DNA from: Agrypnia vestita | Taxonomy: Eukaryota > Arthropoda > Insecta > Trichoptera > Phryganeidae | DNA length: 64,000 nucleotides | Assembly: GCA_016648135.1 (NCBI GenBank) | Contig: JADDOH010002112.1 | Span: forward strand, 49,031 to 113,030 | Direction of reading: 5' to 3' | Shown: piece by piece, positions 9,641 to 60,261 of the stretch | Layout: each line of letters starts with the position of its first letter | How positions within the stretch are numbered: the first letter of the stretch is position 1 | Translations under genes and position numbers: made by a program | The notes under the pieces: generated by a model | Told to the model about the DNA's origin: nothing | Seen by the model: only the letters and a program-made list of their open reading frames with translations | Databases searched by the model: none

Positions 9641-9949
9641 GAAATGAAGTGTAACAATAATGTCTTTACTGTTATTGTAAAACACTATTAAACTATCGAC
9701 TATCGTGGATTGCTTGCTGCTAGGCCCTGTGGGCGGCTGTCCTGGCCGCTGCGCGTGGGCTATGCCATTAGTATCTGCGTTTGACTATCGCCCATTGGCT
9801 GCTGCTTTTCATACTAGGTGGTAACGGAAATGTTTTTGGAGCAATTATAATATAGACTGTCACTTCGTCAACCTAGACGTTTGACAAATGTCCTGACATT
9901 TCGCACTGAAACTTTATGCTTCTATATTTTGTCTTATTTATTTATTTTA

Positions 9950-10492
9950 TACAGGGTTATTTGTAAAACATTAATAACCTCGCAGGACTATATTCCTGCC
10001 TTGATTATGAGTCGAAAAAGTTCAAGCTATCATGACCTAATATCAATAGTTATGGAGATATGCGACATCAAAGTTTGCATTTTTTTTCCAATATTTCTGA
10101 CATATTTTTTGTGAAACGTTGGACTATCATTACAGTAACTTATTTCGAATATGGAAAATTCATTCCCTTTAATATAAGACAAATAAAAAAATAAAAAGCT
10201 TCGAATTCCAATTGGAAAACATTCCAATTGGAATTTTTTCAGAGTTTTTATCATTTTATTTAACTTGTATTGCAACGAATGAATTTTTCGTAATCGATAT
10301 GAGTTACTGTAATGATAGTACAACGCTTTACAAAAAATAAGTCAGAAATATTGAAAAAAAAATGCAAACTTTGATGTCGCATATCTCCATAACTATTGAT
10401 ATTAGGTCATGATAGCTTGAACTTTTTCGACTCATAATCAAGGCAGGAATATAGTCCTGCGAGGTTATTAATGTTTTACAAATAACCCTGTA
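9950..10492. mobile_element. Family C: full-length palindromic foldback element 1
   Basis: A 543-bp near-perfect palindrome begins TACAGGGTTATTTGTAAAAC and ends with its complement. The arms continue through ATTAATAACCTCGCAGGACT, then ATATTCCTGCCTTGATTATG and AGTCGAAAA. Because it is a palindrome, the same peptide is encoded on both strands (frames at 9881-10114 plus and 10328-10519 minus), which shows these frames are not genes. The centre is near 10213 (attccaattggaa). A second complete copy is at 25634-26158, with half copies at 3095, 16960, 22840, 30166 and 62508. Confidence 0.85.
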
Positions 10493-10796
10493 TATATTGG
10501 TGCAATACAGTACATGCATAGTAGATAGAATTTTTTAGGATTATAACAAATAAATTACAGAATCATGCACCAATAACATGTATTGCACGATGTCAGAGAA
10601 GTATTTCAAATTTAAGATAATTGTGTATAATCAGAATGTATAATACAAACACGGCAACTTATAAAATGCCTTATTTTTCATTATTCATAGCACGCATGAA
10701 TGGTGTGTTAGTCTATGAATGTGTTATTATGAGTTTCGGTGTGTGAAGGTTGTGTGGGGTGGACTTGGCGAAGATAGAACTAATTGTTTTGTATAT

Positions 10797-22993: not shown

Positions 22994-25633
22994 AGCAGCT
23001 TCAGATCATTTACTATTGCAAATACTTTTATTGACGAATTTTAAAAATAATCTGAATTCCTCATGCCATGACTGAAACATTTCAATCCGCTTTCTTCCAC
23101 CCAAGGAGATTTCAAAAGCATTTTTCCTTAAAAGTTTGCGTGGGATATAACGGATTTTATGGATACGAGAACTCCCGTAGTTCGTATCTGATTTCTATCA
23201 AACTTTAAAAAAAGGATAAAGTAGATATCTCGATAAAGTTCGTTGACTAGCCTGATTCGCCATCTGGCTTGGAAAACTTTTAAAAATTCGTAACTCGTTT
23301 AATACTCGGCCAGAGAGAGAAAATAAAAAAATTCTTTCCCACACGATATCTGTTTCACAATGGCAGATGTTCAAAAATTTTAATTACGCCAATATTGATG
23401 CTAGAGAAGAAAAAATATTATGAAGCATCGTGGAATATTACAGAATTTTGTCAAAACACATTTTAGAATACAACGTGATTATTTTGAATATTATTTTCTT
23501 TTCTTTTAGATGTGTTATTTTCTATTCAGCAGAGGCGTGTAGTAATTACATTGAAGGATGACTTTTACGTAAATATATACATAGAAAAAAAAATTCGACG
23601 GCCCTACGTTACTGACGAATCTCCAAAAATTCGATTTTCGTTTTAGTATCTCTTTTTTCCGTCCTATTTATTCTAAATTTTCTGATAATGTTTAATTTTC
23701 CTTTAATGTATGCTTTGTTTGAAATGTTTTTTTTAAACATTGTCCAAAAGTGTATAGAGTGAATTGGATGATTTAAGATAGCAAAATGACAAATTAATTT
23801 TTGCAGGTTCGGCAGTATAAATAGGAACCGTCGATTTCATTTCGTTTTTTTTCTAAAATATGTGTTTGCTTACGTAAATGTCATGCTTTGATGTACTCAC
23901 TGCACGCGCCTGCTTTTCCTAACACTTCAGAAACTAGGTATTGAGATATTACTTTAAATATCTAAGTAAACAATAAATGAAGTAAGTACCTATATGTTTT
24001 ATATTCGCTTTGCGCCCTATTTTTAATTTTTTCGTTTTTTAGTAAATACTTTTTCATCTTCATATATGATTGTTTTTTTATTGCATACAGTTTTATTACA
24101 ATTTTTTTTTTAGTCTATTAAAACAATAAAATACATAACTTAGATATATAATTGTGTTATACATAGCACCTCTCCATTTAAGAGCATTGCTTAATTAATT
24201 TTTGGATACTTGTTTTCTGTTTACAAAATATCAAAATTTTAATTTTCAGAACTTTTGGTTTTTGGTTCTAATGGCCGGTTATTTGATACGTAAGAAAAAG
24301 GCATAGATGTTTACAAAAACATGTTGATTGATTGGTAGAAAACGCAAAAATCTAAGATTTTTGCTGAACTATACCATTATTACTGATCACACAACCGGCC
24401 GCAAATTAAAAAACGTAGTTATGTATGCGGAATATTTACATACTCAAGTTTTTTATGTCTATAATATGTTTATTTATAGATACTCCTTGCTTGTCGTATT
24501 TAATAATATGTATGGACGGTTTTGTCTTTTTAGCATTTTTGGTTTATATTATGTTATTCAGATGAAATCTATTTGTTTCTTTGCATACAGTTTCAAATCA
24601 TTTTTTCTCGAAATCTTTTGAAATCATCTCCAACCTCGTGCATCATACATGTTCTTCCTTTAAAAATGAATGAAACAGCGAAATTTAAAAATTTAAAAAA
24701 AAAATCGTGCATGCACTCATTTGTAAAAATTTACACCGATCATTGTTGATTATTTTATTTAGTTTCTTGAAATTAATTAAAACTCATACTTACAGAAGTG
24801 TAACCTCGAATATTTAAAATAATTAGAACAAATAAAAATTTTCTTAAGCGATCGAAACATTCGTGAACTCGCATGTAATCGGAATCTGACAGCTGACAAG
24901 AATTCAAAATGGCTTCGTTGCCGAGACGTTGTTCCTTTTCAAAAAAAGTATCTACCAACTTTCATGTTTTATCAATTTTCGGCCTAAAACGTTATTCAAA
25001 AGTTTCGAAACTATACAACTTTGACAGCCGCCTTGAATGTCGAATGAATGAATGTTTTTTGTTTTGAAAACGAAAATCACAGTCACAGACAGTCTTTTGC
25101 AATAATATAGTTTTTGAACGTTAAAAAATGATGTAAAGATTCGTGAACTCTCATGTAAGCAGATACTGATCGCTGATACGAATTCAGTATGGCGTCGTTA
25201 CTTCTGGTATCGCATTTCCGCTACATACTGCGCGCGCAACTTCCGTCGCAATGAAAAATTTAGTCCGAACGCGCCAAAATATGTATAGCTTCGGTAATTT
25301 TAATAAACACAAAACATGCGCCGATTCTCTTGAACCAAACAACCGCTCTCGATCAGTTCACGGCTAGGCGAGCGGTAAATACATTTTTGGCAAATCAAAG
25401 CTTTTGACACGGAGCCAAGCGCGGATGACTCCGTCTGGAGCGGTCCACGGAATGGCAAAAGCGCCAGCGGGAGGGCTGATCCATGATTGTGTCATGTGTG
25501 TAATTGGCGCCGGGCAGCCAAACGGACGTCGTGACGCGCCGCTACGTGGCGATCGGCTGCCGACACACGGCGCCTGATGTTGCATCAACAGCGGGAGATT
25601 GATCGGAAAAATGTTTGTACGTTAAAATAAATA
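22994..25633. other. Long AT-rich spacer with a direct repeat pair
   Basis: No gene is recognised in 2.6 kb. Two related 70-bp segments, 24856-24926 and 25136-25204, share TTCGTGAACTC.CATGTAA, GAATTCA..ATGGC.TCGTT. A CpG-rich stretch at 25380-25590 holds a 74-codon minus frame without recognisable motifs. T-rich frames around 24328-24621 look like chance. Confidence 0.45.
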
Positions 25634-26158
25634 TACAGGGTTATTTGTAAAACATTAATAACCTCGCAGGACTATATTCCTGCCTTGATTATGAGTCGAA
25701 AATGTTCAAGCTATTATGACCTAATACCAATAGTTAAGGAGATATGCGATATCAAAGTTTGCATTTTTTTTCAATATTTCCGACTTATTTTTTGTAAAAC
25801 GTTGGACAATCATTACAGTAACTTATATCAAATATGAAAAATTCATTATCTTTAATACAAGTCAAATAAAAAAATAAAAACCTTCGAATTCCAATTGGAA
25901 TTTTTTCGGGGTTTTTATCATTTTATTTAACTTGTATTGAAACGAATGAATTTTTCGTAATCGATATGAGTAACTGTAATGATAGTCCAACGTTTTACAA
26001 AAAATAAGCCATATATATTGAAAAAAAATGCAAACTTTGATGTCGCATATCTCCTTAACTATTGATATTAGGTCATAATAGCTTGAACATTTTCGACTCA
26101 TAATCTAGACAGAAATATAGCCCTGCGAGGTTATTAATGTTTTACAAATAACCCTGTA
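25634..26158. mobile_element. Family C: full-length palindromic foldback element 2
   Basis: A 525-bp palindrome with TACAGGGTTATTTGTAAAAC at the left and its complement ending at 26158. It is collinear with 9950-10492, including the central CGAATTCCAATTGGAATTTT. The flanks are AT-rich and no target duplication can be assigned with certainty. Confidence 0.85.
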
Positions 26159-26599
26159 TAAATAAGTAAATAAATAAAAAATTGAAGACATACTTTTAAA
26201 CGTTTTCTTTGCACTCACTCGTATTTGATTTTTAACACCGCCCATGCAGTATCCAAATATTAAACAGCTGGTTCTTTTTGACAAATCTGACCCAAATTTA
26301 GCATACTTATTCTTTACCGCATCCCATTACTGTGATGTATTTTCTACACAATGTGAAAATTTATGCCAGATTTCCTCAGCAATGCTCCAGAATCCTACAA
26401 ACAGCCTGGAAGAAAGCGATACCCAGAACCAAAGAATATCCATTTGAGAACGAGAAGAGCCCACCCCAAAAAACTACCTAGGCAATGAGTTGGGACAGTG
26501 CAAGGAAGAAGTGCAAATTTACGTTAGATAAAGAAAGAGAATCAATATCTAAAATGAGTGTATTTTTGCAAGATCGGATGAAAAATGATCCTCGTAGCT
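26159..26599. other. Spacer, no gene recognised
   Basis: A 67-codon frame at 26244-26447 (MQYPNIKQLVLFDKSD...) is unrecognised and has no supporting context. Confidence 0.3.
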
Positions 26600-28348: not shown

Positions 28349-29636
28349 TTAGGTCCTTACATATGAAATTGGCGTTTTGCCGTACTGGCAAATTTGATCT
28401 CAAATATCTTCTCTTTGGTTAGGAATTCCAAATCCAAATTTATACAGCTATTTACTCATGTATTTGTGTTTTGAAAATTATAATTCATTTGTTTTTTCCT
28501 CGATTGTTTTTTTCTTTGCGTCACTCAGTTTACAAAATGAAAAATTTGAAATATCGCGTTATTTACGATTACGAGTTCCACCGTGGCACCAGTGCTGCAG
28601 AAACGGCTCAAAGGATTAATGATGTGTATGGCGACGGTGCCGCAAAAGAAAACACAGTGCGTTTTTGGTTCCAACGTTTTCGTTCTGGAAATTTCGACCT
28701 GCAGAACAAGCCCCGTGGACGGCCGGAGACCAAAGTTGATAATGAAGAATTGAAGGCTATTGTGGAAGCGGATCCATCGCAAACCACATCCGAGTTAGCT
28801 GCAGGCTGCGGTGTTAGTGATAAAACTGTTTTAATCCACTTGAAGCAAATTGGTAAGGTGAAAAAGCTTGAAAGGTGGGTACCTCACGCATTGAGTGAAG
28901 CAAATCAACAAACGCGCGTTGACTGCTGCGTTGCATTACTCAACCGGCACAATAATGAAGGTATTTTAAATTGAATCATTACCTGTGATGAAAAGTGGAT
29001 CCTGTACGATAATCGGAAGCGCTCATCGCAATGGCTGAACCCTGCCGAACCAGCCAAACCATGCCCCCAGCGAAAAGTGACTCCAAAAAAGTTACTTGTG
29101 AGCGTTTGGTGGACTAGTGCTGGTGTCGTTCACTACACCTTTCTTAAATCTGGCCAGACGATTACGGCAGATGTCTATTGTCAGCAACTGCAAACCATGA
29201 TGGAAAAGCTAGCTGCTAAACAACCGAGGCTAGTTAATCGCTCTAGGCCACTGCTGCTTCATGATAACACTAGACCACACACTGCACAACAGACGTCTAC
29301 CAAATTAGAGGAGCTTCAATTGGAATGTCTAAGACATCCACCGTACTCTCCGGACCTTGCCCCAACAGATAACCATTTTTTTCGAAATTTGGATAACTTC
29401 TTGCAAAGGAAAAAATTCAACTCCGATGGGGCAGTCCAAACCGCCTTCAAAGATTTTATTGATTCCCGTCCGAATGGTTTTTTTTAGTAAAGGGATCGAT
29501 GAACTACCTATGAGATGGCAAAAGTGCATAGATAGCAATGGTACATACTTTGATTAAATAAATATATTTTAATAAAAAAAAAAACGGCTTTATGTTCCTC
29601 CCATACTAAACGCCAATTTCATATGTAAGGACCTAA
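28349..29636 (+). mobile_element. Complete mariner transposon, 1288 bp
   Basis: Perfect 29-bp terminal inverted repeats start TTAGGTCCTTACATATGAAA (28349-28377) and end at 29636. They are flanked by the TA target duplication typical of the family (28347-28348 and 29637-29638). The single transposase frame inside is interrupted by one stop codon and one frameshift. Length, TIR size and DD34D spacing all match canonical mariners. The identical TIRs and low damage suggest a fairly recent insertion. Confidence 0.95.
28537..29557 (+). pseudogene. Mariner transposase, one nonsense and one frameshift
   Basis: Starts at ATG 28537 (MKNLKYRVIYDYEFHRGTSA); an in-frame upstream start would only add a T-rich leader. 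About 339 codons, as usual for mariner. The N-terminal half holds the paired helix-turn-helix DNA-binding region (TVRFWFQRF, GRP linker, then HLKQIGKVKKLERWVPHALS). The first catalytic Asp is in ITCDEKW, the second in LLHDNTRPH, the third in APTDNHFF. The last two are separated by 34 residues, the DD34D signature. An in-frame TGA at 28972 sits where Arg would be expected before the ITCDEKW block. An extra T in the run at 29478-29485 shifts frame; the true C-terminus (SKGIDELPMRWQKCIDSNGT...) follows in another frame to 29557. The sequence resembles the cecropia-type subfamily. Confidence 0.93.
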
Positions 29637-48539: not shown

Positions 48540-49140
48540 ATCATCATCAATGTCTCCACAGCGCATTGTGGGCCTTAGCCTCCTCCAACATTCCTCTTCA
48601 TCTTCCTCTATTCTGACATGTACTCCTCCAATCCCTGACGCTTATAGTTTTCACGTCTTGCTGCACTCCATCCAGCCACCGGAGTTTGAGTCTACCAACG
48701 CTGCATCTACCTTGGGGCTTTGTGTGGAGAATCTTTTTTGGCTTCGCTCATCCTTTCTACGTGCCCTGCCCATCACAGTTTCCCTATTTTGATAAATTGT
48801 ATTATGTTGAGCTCACTTTAAATATTGTAGACCTCCACGTTGTATCGTATTCTCCAAACTCTTAATCTGCACTGGACCGAATATTTTTATTTGTTATTTT
48901 TCTTTCAAATACAAAGAAAGACGTTTCATACTTTGTACTCAATACCCAGCATTCAGAGCCATACGTTAGTTAATACAGGACGTAATGGTGTCTTATAGAT
49001 GGTAACTTTTGTTTTTCTTGACAACATTTGGGATGCGAGATGTCTTCCCAAACCGAAGAAACATTTATTTGCCATGTGTATTCTGTGTTTGATTTCGGTT
49101 GATGTGTCATTTGCATTGATCATCCATGGATCCTAGGTAG
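48540..49140 (-). pseudogene. Non-LTR RT C-terminal region, nearly to its 3' end
   Basis: Minus strand from about 49115: NANDTSTEIKHRIHMANKCF, then FGLGRHLASQMLSRKTKVTI, then YKTPLRPVLTNVW. Later pieces in shifted frames are FERK-like and then KIGKL, stop, WAGHVERMSEAKKDSPHKAP. This is the full succession following the YADD box in an insect RTE-like family: I..RI..AN.CF, YKT..RP, FE.K, WRIRYN, GHV.RM. It ends in AATGCGCTGTGGAGACATTG, then ATGATGATGG, matching the scraps at 41430 and 50455. Several frameshifts. Confidence 0.8.
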
Positions 49141-50761: not shown

Positions 50762-51236
50762 TCGTACCCACCCGTACAGTAAGCTCGCAGACTTTTGAGG
50801 GACGTTTTAACAGGATAAAGTCATGCATTATACCGTATCCTAAAATGCAGAACGGATGTAATGAGTAGGCATAATATAACGCGTAGTGTGCAACTTTTAA
50901 ACAAATTGAGTGATCGTGTCGATGTATTATTTAATTACAGCATTAAAAGCATGACATAGAAGATCGCTTCCATAAAAGGCACTTACTTCATTGATTGCAC
51001 GGTAAATAGAGCAAAAAAAAAGACCATCTTCCGAGACTTCCGCGGACGTTTCGTATTTGGGTTTGGGTACCTTCAAAATCGCGCATCCCGTCATATAATC
51101 TTTCTTACTATTCTCTTTTCATCCACTCGTTCTACGCGATCAAACCATAAAGAAAACAATATAAAACTGAGAGTTATTACAGTTTTCGTGACATATTTAG
51201 ACTGTGACTCACTGAATAAACACATTCTGTAAATAT
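50762..51236. other. Spacer, no gene recognised
   Basis: No recognisable frame or repeat between the MITE and the LTR element. Confidence 0.4.
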
Positions 51237-51542
51237 TGTTACGTGGCGTGGCTCGCTCGAAAAATGAAATGGCACAACTCGTAAAATAAATCTTTTATTA
51301 TCGCTTGTACATTATCTCTCACATTTTACAATCGCTCGCAACGCAATCTACTGCTATTTTTTATTCAAACACAAAAGAACAGCTCTCTTTTGTTTTTCTA
51401 CTCGGGTAAGAACCCTTCCATTTCTTCGCTATTTATAAATCATGTTAGTTCTTATTTCAACCACTGGGCATACCGGCCTGCCGTTCTGCGCATGTAACAC
51501 TTTTCTATGGAACTGTCAAATGTCAACGAACAGCTCGTTACA
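51237..51542 (-). repeat. 3' LTR of the Hsp70-carrying element
   Basis: In element orientation it begins TGTAACGAGCTGTTCGTTGA and ends CGAGCCACGCCACGTAACA. ATTTATAAATAG (plus 51430-51441) is TATA-like, and AATAAAAA/AATAAAAGA could serve as polyadenylation signals. It differs from the other LTR at about 51332 (C versus T) and 51438 (A versus T). Confidence 0.92.
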
Positions 51543-51558
51543 CAGCCTCCCTCTCTCA
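51543..51558 (-). promoter_or_regulatory. Polypurine tract
   Basis: On the minus strand TGAGAGAGGGAGGCTG lies directly before the 3' LTR, the position from which plus-strand cDNA synthesis is primed in LTR elements. One C and two Ts interrupt it. Confidence 0.7.
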
Positions 51559-51766
51559 ATACTGTTCGTCCCGAACAGGATCATTGTTGTCTCCATGAGA
51601 TCTCCAAATTCCCATGCTGCCACACTCCAATACACGAGCGCGTGTTCTCACATCTATCTCAATCGTCATTGATTCATTTTCTTTTCAGCTTATTGCGTGC
51701 CTCAATTCGCTTCTTCGTTGCACGGAACCTCTCTGCTTCCTCGAACATTTCTTTTTTTTTAAATCC

Positions 51767-52972
51767 TCAGCAAAAATGATTAGCACTCCAGATCGATACT
51801 TGGAAGTTCCATCCACCTGGGTCAAAGACGAGCACGCTACGCTTGCGCTTTGAATTTATGTTGAACTCGTAAGCCCGCGCCGCCACAGTGAGCTCATTGA
51901 TGATCTGCAGCACGTTGAGCTTGACTGTCCTGACCACATTCCTGATAGCTTGTCGCTGAGAGTCACTGAAGTAATCTGTCATAGCCAGAACTGCTTCCTT
52001 CACACTCTGGTCCACGTATGCTTCGGTCGTCTGTTCCATCTCGTCCAACACCATGGGACTTATTTCATCGGGAGAGAGTTTCTTGTTCTCCCCTTTGTAC
52101 CCTACTTGCACCATGGGCTTGTCCTCCACGGTGACTACGCACAAGGGCCAGGGCTCTATGTCCTCCTGTATCTTGAGTTCAGTGAACTCGTGCTGCTCGG
52201 CGTCGTACACAGTATTGCTGAGGTCCATCGCAAACTGGTCCTCGGCCACATTTTCCATCGTCACCTGGTCCTCAGCCGCATTTTCCGTCGTCAGCTGGTC
52301 CTCGGCCACATTTTCCATTGTCACCTGGTCCTCGGCTGCTTTTTCCATCGCCACCTGGTCCTCGGCCACATTTTCCATCAGCCTCTCACTATCGACGAAG
52401 ATCATTTCTGCAGGTGTTGTCCCATTTCCTTGGTCATACCTAATGTTTGAGGGCGCCGCCGTTTCGTACTGCCTGTGGTTGCTATCCTGTAAACATCGTT
52501 CGTCGAATGTAGAAGGCTTTTTCCCTGTCGACCCTATAGCATTCTCTACTTGAACCTTCTGGCAATTTCTTACTTCATCCCGGAGTTTCTCGATTTCATG
52601 TCGTGTCTTTTCAGCGTCACGTTTTACGTCTTGTCGAAGATCCTTGATATCTTCATGAAGATTATTGACGTCCAGTTTAGTGATCTGCAATTCTTTTTGT
52701 TGCTTGTCAACACTTTCCCTAAGCTCCTTGATGCCTCCTAATTTGACGTCCAACAACATTCCCAATTTTTGCTCCTGTTCTTCCTTGTCTTCTTGGCGTT
52801 TCCGCTCCTGTTCTTCCTTGTCTTCTTGGCGTTTCCGCTCCTGTTCTTCCTTGTCGTCTTGGCGTTTCCGCTCCTGTTCTTCCTTGTCTTCTTGGCGTTT
52901 CCGCTCCAGTTCTTCCAGCATCTTCATTATCATATCGCATTCCGCATCCGAAAATTCCTCCATGGTTGCCAT
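51767..52972 (-). CDS. Gag-like coiled coil fused to Hsp70 nucleotide-binding-domain fragment
   Basis: 401 codons from ATG at 52972 (MATMEEFSDAECDMIMKMLE); an in-frame GTG at 52996 could add eight residues. Numbered from that GTG: residues 15-150 form a highly charged coiled coil with four 11-residue ERKRQ(E/D)DKEEQ repeats (32-75), as in many Gag N-termini. Residues 183-405 follow Hsp70 in order: DQGNGTTPAEMIFVDSERLM, then an expanded A.DQVAM motif, NTVYDAEQ, EDIEPWP, VQVGYKGENKKLSPDEIS, YFSDSQRQAI, LNVLQIINELTVAARAYE, and VLVFDPGGWNFQVSI. It covers about Hsp70 positions 30-210. The first phosphate loop, most of lobe II and the peptide-binding domain are absent. The phosphate-2 loop reads DPGGWNFQ instead of the usual DLGGGTFD, so ATPase activity is unlikely. 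The frame is intact. Role unknown: possibly a cargo or an altered Gag. Confidence 0.88.
   Translation of the reverse strand: MATMEEFSDAECDMIMKMLEELERKRQEDKEEQERKRQDDKEEQERKRQEDKEEQERKRQEDKEEQEQKLGMLLDVKLGGIKELRESVDKQQKELQITKLDVNNLHEDIKDLRQDVKRDAEKTRHEIEKLRDEVRNCQKVQVENAIGSTGKKPSTFDERCLQDSNHRQYETAAPSNIRYDQGNGTTPAEMIFVDSERLMENVAEDQVAMEKAAEDQVTMENVAEDQLTTENAAEDQVTMENVAEDQFAMDLSNTVYDAEQHEFTELKIQEDIEPWPLCVVTVEDKPMVQVGYKGENKKLSPDEISPMVLDEMEQTTEAYVDQSVKEAVLAMTDYFSDSQRQAIRNVVRTVKLNVLQIINELTVAARAYEFNINSKRKRSVLVFDPGGWNFQVSIWSANHFC
51780..52450 (-). other. Hsp70-derived (HSP70 family NBD) segment
   Basis: This stretch of the ORF is recognisable as Hsp70 throughout, without introns. Several of the longest matches to the family consensus are YFSDSQRQA, LNVL.IINE and VQV.YKGE.K..SP(D)EIS. 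Changes at P-to-L in the INEPT motif and in the GGG loop show relaxed constraint on ATP binding, while the frame has stayed open. Confidence 0.88.
52226..52381 (-). repeat. 30-bp tandem repeats encoding a decapeptide
   Basis: Five units encode the pattern MENVAEDQVA (variants MEKAAEDQVT, MENVAEDQLT, TENAAEDQVT, MENVAEDQFA). The unit corresponds to the single A(A/G)KNQVAMNP-type motif of Hsp70, so it is a local expansion inside the captured segment. Confidence 0.85.
52772..52905 (-). repeat. 33-bp tandem repeats encoding ERKRQxDKEEQ
   Basis: Four near-identical units (plus-strand phrase TTGTCTTCTTGGCGTTTCCG, then CTCCTGTTCTTCC) encode an 11-residue, heavily charged coiled-coil repeat. Several antisense frames in this interval (for example 52769-53071 plus) are by-products of the repeat. 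Confidence 0.9.
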
Positions 52973-53020
52973 TTCTTCCTGTGCCACGATCTTCACGTTG
53001 ATTTCTTAAAAATCTCCCGA

Positions 53021-53038
53021 ATCCCGCTTCTGACGCCA
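53021..53038 (-). promoter_or_regulatory. Primer-binding site, tRNA-Leu-like
   Basis: On the minus strand TGGCGTCAGAAGCGGGAT begins two bases after the 5' LTR. Its complement, ATCCCGCTTCTGACGCCA, ends in CCA and closely resembles the 3' end of animal tRNA-Leu(CAA) as I remember it (about two differences in 20). The tRNA identity is inferred, not verified. Confidence 0.7.
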
Positions 53039-53040
53039 GT

Positions 53041-53346
53041 TGTTACGTGGCGTGGCTCGCTCGAAAAATGAAATGGCACAACTCGTAAAATAAATCTTTT
53101 ATTATCGCTTGTACATTATCTCTCACATTTTACAATTGCTCGCAACGCAATCTACTGCTATTTTTTATTCAAACACAAAAGAACAGCTCTCTTTTGTTTT
53201 TCTACTCGGGTAAGAACCCTTCCATTTCTTCGCTATTTATTAATCATGTTAGTTCTTATTTCAACCACTGGGCATACCGGCCTGCCGTTCTGCGCATGTA
53301 ACACTTTTCTATGGAACTGTCAAATGTCAACGAACAGCTCGTTACA
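53041..53346 (-). repeat. 5' LTR of the Hsp70-carrying element
   Basis: Same sequence as 51237-51542 apart from two bases. It would drive transcription of the minus strand towards the ORF. The TATA-like stretch reads ATTAATAAATAG in this copy. Confidence 0.92.
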
Positions 53347-53350
53347 ATAT

Positions 53351-59583: not shown

Positions 59584-59696
59584 TAAAACTGTTGGTCAGT
59601 TGTCAATGAAGTTGACGCTATTTGATTAAATTATATTTTCTAACTAACTTTGTATAACATTACTCAAACAATAAATAAGTGTTTCACCGCTAGTTT

Positions 59697-59986
59697 CGGA
59701 GGGAACAGAATATCCCATATCCCATATGATAAGTAAAACTAAATACTAATTAATCGGAGGGAACAGAATATCCCATATCTCATATGATAAGTAAAACTAA
59801 ATACTAATTAATCGGAGGGAACAGAATATCCCATATCCCATATGATAAGTAAAACTAAATACTAATTAATCGGAGGGAACAGAATATCCCATATCCCATA
59901 TGATAAGTAAAACTAAATACTAATTAATCGGAGGGAACAGAATATCCCATATCCCATATGATAAGTAAAACTAAATACTAATTAAG
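59697..59986. repeat. Minisatellite, five units of 58 bp
   Basis: Units start CGGAGGGAACAGAATATCCC at 59697, 59755, 59813, 59871 and 59929 and are almost identical; a C/T change in the second unit is the only one I noticed. Such homogeneity implies recent expansion. No spacers vary between units, so it is not a CRISPR. Confidence 0.95.
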
Positions 59987-60261
59987 ATAAACAACTGAAG
60001 TCTCACAAAGATGATTTTTATATGGGAGTTATTTACATGGGAGATATGTATGGAGGTTAAAGGGTGGCCCAGGGCTTATGCGATCACTTACACAATGAAA
60101 TGTTCACCAATTCCACCGTAAGAACATCCAAATATTACCAAATTTTTTAATGTCGTATATATGTATGTTCTAAATAAGTTTCTTTAATATATTCTAATGG
60201 ACTATGGTTGACACATCTATGGTCCTTCCCATCACATAGTGAAATATTAAGCAATATTCTT
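59987..60261. other. Spacer, no gene recognised
   Basis: Nothing seen beyond AT-rich unique sequence. Confidence 0.4.

Follow-up and report, generated by a model that had tools for sequence, protein, structure and literature searches.

TR-GAG elements of plants consist of a pair of long terminal repeats (LTRs) around a single gag-type open reading frame (ORF), without pol; we know of none that has a piece of Hsp70. LTR elements of animals are not known to take up host genes commonly. Among the RNA viruses of plants, closteroviruses encode Hsp70h, a near-complete relative of Hsp70. Non-autonomous transposable elements with captured host gene sequence have been reviewed for plants, and host-gene capture by LTR elements is described mainly there (PMC13317346). 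The PbTRIM element of Pogonomyrmex barbatus is 480-781 bp long, with LTRs of 152-184 bp and a non-coding internal region, a 4-bp target-site duplication (TSD) that is mostly ATAT, a tRNA-Leu primer-binding site (PBS), and no autonomous partner found (PMC3532108). LTR retrotransposons with fused accessory domains have also been described from insects, for example with a viral SF1 helicase that keeps its full motif set (PMC6338049).

The element described here lies on contig JADDOH010002112.1 of Agrypnia vestita, within a stretch of 64,000 nucleotides (contig positions 49,031 to 113,030) called the window. It is an LTR retrotransposon that spans window positions 51237-53346, with the minus strand as its coding strand. 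Its kind is known: LTR elements that are non-autonomous and have taken up gene sequence. It shares with TR-GAGs the LTR pair, the single ORF, and the lack of pol, but those elements are defined by Gag homology, whereas this one is Gag-like by position only. Closteroviruses are likewise mobile genomes with an Hsp70 relative, near-complete there and a fragment here. Compared by description with PbTRIM (PMC3532108), it is also an insect non-autonomous LTR element with 4-bp ATAT TSDs, a PBS that appears to fit tRNA-Leu, young copies, and solo LTRs; unlike PbTRIM, it has 306-bp LTRs and about 1.5 kb inside, where a 412-codon frame with the Hsp70 piece takes the place of the very short non-coding interior of a TRIM. 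Like the SF1 helicase elements (PMC6338049), it is an insect LTR element in which sequence of foreign origin is read in one frame with the element's protein, but the Hsp70 piece is truncated, altered at its catalytic sites, and drawn from a host gene family. Set against the plant gene-capturing elements (PMC13317346), the captured piece here is in frame with the element ORF and belongs to a multi-copy insect LTR family. Open-licence PMC literature yielded no Hsp70-carrying LTR element among the matches listed, which is weak evidence of absence.

Structure and dispersal of the element

The 5' LTR (53041-53346) and the 3' LTR (51237-51542), both on the minus strand, are each 306 bp long with termini TGT...ACA (TGTAACG...CGTAACA for the 5' LTR) and differ by 2 substitutions. 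They are flanked by the TSD ATAT, at 51233-51236 on the left and again at 53347-53350 on the right. The PBS, TGGCGTCAGAAGCGGGATTC, is at 53019-53038 (minus strand) and begins 2 nt past the 5' LTR; it appears to resemble the 3' end of a tRNA-Leu. The polypurine tract, GAGAGAGGGAGG, is a 12-nt purine run at 51546-51557 (minus strand) that ends 3 nt short of the 3' LTR. A preliminary description, made from the letters of the window, had called the locus an LTR retrotransposon with an ATAT duplication, a PBS, and a polypurine tract, and all of these sites were located. A tRNA scan found no tRNA-Leu in the window or in 36 further loci, where the tRNAs present were one Thr and one Ser; in the window itself, no tRNA of any kind and no Rfam family was matched.

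No pol function (protease, reverse transcriptase, RNase H, or integrase) was found in the element, and HSP70 was the sole Pfam match in the ORF. Internal length ranged from 1307 to 1589 bp across the 22 LTR pairs described below. The 4-bp AT-rich TSDs are consistent with a Ty3/gypsy-like element, although not diagnostic of one. None of four heat-shock element patterns occurred within the 306-bp LTR, leaving a heat-inducible LTR without support; three two-unit matches to such patterns were inside the element but outside the LTRs. The window contained no further close copies of the element. A mariner transposon is also present in the window.

The element's own 1.32-Gb assembly was searched with the LTR. 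The best 40 of 1005 candidates were scored, and 40 of 40 were 99-100% identical. Since only the best LTR matches were taken, older copies are excluded from all copy-based counts, and the copy number is a lower bound. The 40 matches represent 37 places (the window and 36 others), which comprise 22 LTR pairs, 14 solo LTRs, and 1 copy that runs off its contig (L011). Equal 4-bp flanks were present at 31 of the 36 pairs and solos, 23 of the 31 being ATAT. The window copy and L013 have both flanks in common and are probably alleles, as probably are the solos L022 and L031; about 34 distinct sites are found among the 36 pairs and solos. LTR-LTR divergence in the 22 copies was 0-2.96%. A related LTR of 74.5% identity was present in L030 (762-951), and therefore at least one sister family exists. 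In all 22 pairs the VFDxGG motif of Hsp70 lies between the LTRs and has moved with them as a unit, as in a gene-capturing element.

These data bear on whether the locus is an element at all, or rather a host gene between segmentally duplicated flanks, or a product of misassembly. The absence of pol, and nothing else, speaks for either of the latter. Against them stand 21 further LTR pairs, the TSDs, and the 14 solo LTRs; moreover, both flanks of the window recur at L013 only, while L033 and L035 have one flank in common. The dispersed 99-100% LTR matches, solo LTRs, TSDs, and differing flanks rule out both, and we give them practically no chance. Other copies with both LTRs, which the preliminary description had proposed to look for, were thus found (22 LTR pairs including that of the window, and 14 solos), and its LTR pair recurs at other sites and is no segmental duplication.

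The open frame and its Hsp70 sequences

A single frame of 412 codons, stop to stop, is open at 51767-53005 (minus strand). It also reads as a 409-aa ORF with a GTG start, and its first in-frame ATGs, the candidate starts, are residues 9 and 12 (52970-52972 and 52961-52963, minus strand). An AlphaFold model of the ORF (mean pLDDT 62, pTM 0.27) has helices at residues 17-81 and 89-155, a disordered linker to about residue 270, and then a poorly packed, poorly predicted Hsp70-like part. As the input alignment consisted of the ORF and 16 Hsp70s, no relatives informed the prediction of the helices. The first is a predicted charged helix (52754-52948, minus strand) with 33-bp (11-aa) repeats and a pLDDT of 91-95 at residues 21-70, and its heptad periodicity (residues 16-80) was no better than that of shuffles (p=0.96). 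In contrast, periodicity exceeded that of shuffles at residues 80-148 (p=0.003), in the region of the predicted second helix with heptads (52532-52732, minus strand). The term coiled coil, which had been applied to the whole helical region, therefore fits the second helix only.

The element had also been labelled gag-only, which the data do not establish. The helical region had zero Pfam matches above the cut-off (best DUF4371, E=0.035, 14.4 bits, cut-off 32.1), and none of 212 candidate proteins proved homologous to it; these were of about 225-715 aa, a size range below that of full gag-pol polyproteins. The grounds for calling it Gag are its position behind the PBS and a stretch, KKPSTFDER...RQYETAA, that presumably resembles a Gag motif, and we call it Gag-like by position only.

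On sequence comparison, the C-terminal half of the frame is certain to derive from Hsp70. The fragment of the nucleotide-binding domain (51791-52444, minus strand) corresponds to residues 29-209 of the Hsp70 of Ignelater luminosus (P0072; tblastn E=5e-43) and is colinear with it except for repeats and one 3-aa deletion. Residues 250-409 of the ORF are 51% identical to P0072. Pfam HSP70 (PF00012), which the preliminary description had suggested as a check, matched residues 244-404 strongly (E=1.9e-32, 112.7 bits, cut-off 20.6), and PDB Hsp70 chains matched the ORF at E~1e-37; the captured Hsp70 part is thereby confirmed. P0072 and P0073 are the nearest relatives among 85 proteins found, and both are probably of the heat-inducible cytosolic type, to judge by their residues. 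In-frame tandem repeats of 30 bp (10 aa) at residues 206-255 (52232-52381, minus strand) are inside the Hsp70 stretch DAAKNQVAMN, and the number of motifs varies between copies. Phage records gave 25 matches, all below 60% identity, with two annotated DnaK among the five matches listed; in viral contigs one stretch fit a pattern, and no relative was confirmed.

To speak of an Hsp70 domain, as had been done, is right as to origin and overstated as to extent, since the frame holds residues 29-209 only, with altered catalytic positions. Hsp70 residues 1-28 and all beyond about 209 are absent from it, and no substrate-binding domain was found in the ORF, there being at most a weak lid scrap past the stop. 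The Foldseek TM-score of the model against Hsp70 was only 0.16, so the model shows no packed Hsp70 domain. At 74 sites invariant across 16 Hsp70s, 41 residues (55%) were kept and 33 lost; 11 of 19 were kept at sites conserved at 90% or more, 31 of 53 at 60-90%, and 7 of 33 below 60%. The invariant sites were retained about as often as those at 60-90%, so that full conservation gave no more protection than moderate conservation did. In Hsp70 numbering, E stands at the position of K71, N at that of T204, and Q at that of D206; D199 and E175 are retained. The K71E mutation abolishes ATP hydrolysis in Hsp70, and the titles of the PDB matches include the Hsp70 mutants K71E and D206S. As far as sequence can tell, a working Hsp70 chaperone is ruled out by the truncated ATPase domain (29-209), the loss of 33 of 74 invariant residues, and the catalytic changes.

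Past the stop is an Hsp70 N-terminal scrap (51599-51643, minus strand). Residues 14-28, to which it corresponds, normally precede the in-frame fragment (29-209), and the scrap is thus out of order. Read from 51643 to 51599, TRSCIGVWQHGNLEI aligned to Hsp70 TYSCVGVWQQGRVEI with an ungapped score of 61, whereas the best of 1000 shuffles scored 49. None of 2000 shuffles and none of 496 segments of the window attained its profile score of 5.9. All 22 copies, related as they are by descent, contain it. The preliminary description had overlooked this scrap. By eye, MTIEIDV, which is like an Hsp70 start, can be read in another frame just upstream of it. A possible lid scrap (residues about 520-547; 51680-51751, minus strand; E=0.007) is only suggestive of a further Hsp70 piece; 40 of the 2000 shuffles scored at least as high, as did 3 of the 496 segments. 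Because the fragment comes first and the N-terminus after, a single capture trimmed by deletions does not fit. We infer that this order would result if reverse transcription switched from one RNA to another, or if the capture spanned Hsp70 genes arranged in tandem, and the out-of-order scrap in 22 of 22 copies points to patchwork capture.

Divergence from Hsp70 could also predate capture, if a degenerate Hsp70-like pseudogene or a fast-evolving paralog was taken up, and the permuted scrap could stem from tandem Hsp70 genes. However, identity to P0072 differs between copies (55.8% for L010 and L021 compared to 52.4% for the window copy). The copies are unequally distant from Hsp70, and therefore part of the change arose within the family. 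We regard divergence before capture as doubtful.

Variation and selection in the frame

In 17 of the 22 copies the frame was unbroken between MATMEEF and VFDxGG. The claim that it was intact when the element last moved is in keeping with this and with the 412 codons of the window copy. Every break in the five broken copies was upstream of the Hsp70 part, and VFDxGG was within the longest frame of all 22 LTR pairs, with the frame ending right after it in 6. Open copies had 2-4 of the 33-bp motif and 3-7 of the 30-bp motif. Open and broken copies could not be told apart by the divergence of their LTRs (p=0.27).

Distinct variants in the 17 open copies, 30-bp repeats excluded, numbered 26 synonymous and 52 nonsynonymous, and omega over the frame outside the repeats was about 0.64 (one-sided nominal p=0.042). 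Omega was 0.42 for residues 81-184 (p=0.059), 0.75 for the Hsp70 part (p=0.25), and 1.33 for the 30-bp repeat region. For variant counts in 11 open copies the two-sided p was 0.006, and 15 copies with a stricter start motif and a slightly different region gave a one-sided p=0.06; the figure used for selection is that of the 17-copy test. All of these tests treat copies as unrelated, ignoring kinship, and the window copy and L013, as probable alleles, are a case in point. Between repeat units of the window copy, pS was 0.244 and pN 0.140 for the 30-bp units, and there were 0 synonymous and 6 nonsynonymous pair differences for the 33-bp units, with no clear selection signal in either. Noncoding variants per site were 0.076 in the tail, 0.078 in the leader, and 0.043 and 0.056 in the LTRs; set beside the 52 nonsynonymous variants at some 800 sites, the noncoding parts were not clearly more variable. 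Selection on the frame is weak. In a neutral model without indels, decay to 51% identity free of stops was reached in 1.8% of 1000 simulated runs, and decay to 72%, the case in which half of the divergence predates capture, in 8.8%. Replacements at conserved sites were gentler than the neutral expectation (P=0.015).

The strongest rival to the view that the helical region acts as a Gag remnant is that the whole frame is a passenger, open since the copies stem from a recent founder and the captured sequence has not decayed, with an inert protein. We consider this a real possibility, if not the leading one. It does not exclude the explanation that we prefer, an element moved by a helper, and differs from it in the role of the protein only. 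The youth of the copies, an omega of the Hsp70 part that is indistinguishable from 1, the value above 1 in the repeat region, and the loss of Hsp70 residues irrespective of conservation all agree with a passenger, as do the breaks in the helical part (5 of 22 LTR pairs), the earlier stop after VFDxGG (6 of 22), and noncoding variability no higher than that at nonsynonymous sites. Less easily accommodated are a frame that is stop-free at about 51% identity, given the rarity of that outcome in the neutral runs, the gentler replacements, and the synonymous excess outside the repeats.

The same gentler replacements, the frame open in 17 of 22 copies, and the recent spread to many copies would also suit a functional fusion, in which a dead Hsp70 lobe binds co-chaperones or substrates and aids helper particle formation or shields the element RNA. 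However, constraint specific to Hsp70 is lacking, omega of the Hsp70 part does not depart from 1, the model has no packed domain, and residues 1-28 as well as the remainder of the ATPase domain are absent from the frame. A functional lobe is unlikely.

Proposed mode of movement and significance

The anatomy, TSDs, and copies indicate retrotransposition, and as no pol is inside the element, its enzymes are supplied from elsewhere. It is probably a non-autonomous LTR element with captured Hsp70 sequence that depends on a helper; the best explanation has it with at most a gag remnant and no pol, in a young or recently active, helper-dependent family. RNA transcribed from the LTR would enter the particles of a putative helper element, a tRNA would prime its reverse transcription, and the helper integrase would insert the product at ATAT-like sites. 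The simplest way in which the element could have acquired pieces of cytosolic Hsp70 sequence is a change of template while it was being reverse-transcribed. The helical region may be what is left of the N-terminus of a Gag that the element itself encoded, helping the RNA or the protein to join the helper particle, a role that we put forward tentatively, at somewhat less than even chances. The Hsp70 piece would be mostly a tolerated, catalytically dead spacer that stays in frame.

A bolder proposal makes the fusion a working element protein, in which the helical region co-assembles with helper Gag and the dead Hsp70 lobe is a decoy that brings J-proteins or exchange factors of the host to the particles. 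We think this quite improbable. If true, a retrotransposon parasite would have put a chaperone of its host to use in packaging or assembly.

In most copies (17 of 22) the captured Hsp70 piece is still readable. As a young multi-copy family with an in-frame captured piece, these elements can test whether a non-autonomous element needs a protein of its own, and the same Hsp70-carrying family offers an opening onto how patchwork capture happens.

Copies of the element and the end of their frame

The window copy of the element and the copy at L013, another locus in the same genome carrying the element's LTR, have the same insertion flanks and are located on two contigs. Their internal parts share 99.1% identity, and the two copies are probably alleles.

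The frame ended early in 6 of the 22 copies (L010, L016, L024, L028, L037, and L040), directly after the Hsp70 motif VFDPGG, and was approximately 14 residues shorter at its end in these than in the window copy. Immediately past the stop of the frame, and ahead of a lid-like scrap, possibly a piece of the Hsp70 lid, is an A-run (window 51752-51760, minus strand), the length of which varies from about 9 to 11 among element copies.

Other features of the window

A mariner-type transposase (Pfam HTH_48 and Transposase_1) was found at 28540-29487; a stop splits its reading frame into two adjoining in-frame pieces. Long foldback inverted repeats are present at 25609-26183 (arms of 274 nt, 88%) and 9948-10494 (arms of 250 nt, 92%); these are akin to one another and perhaps constitute a MITE-like family. 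Positions 59638-60043 contain a tandem repeat with a 58-bp unit, the inner units being 98-99% alike.

A related LTR at L030

L030, a further locus of this genome with the element's LTR, possesses at 762-951 an LTR akin to that of the element (74.5% identity), after which comes a similar end, ...CGTAACA. This LTR points to a sister family of the element.
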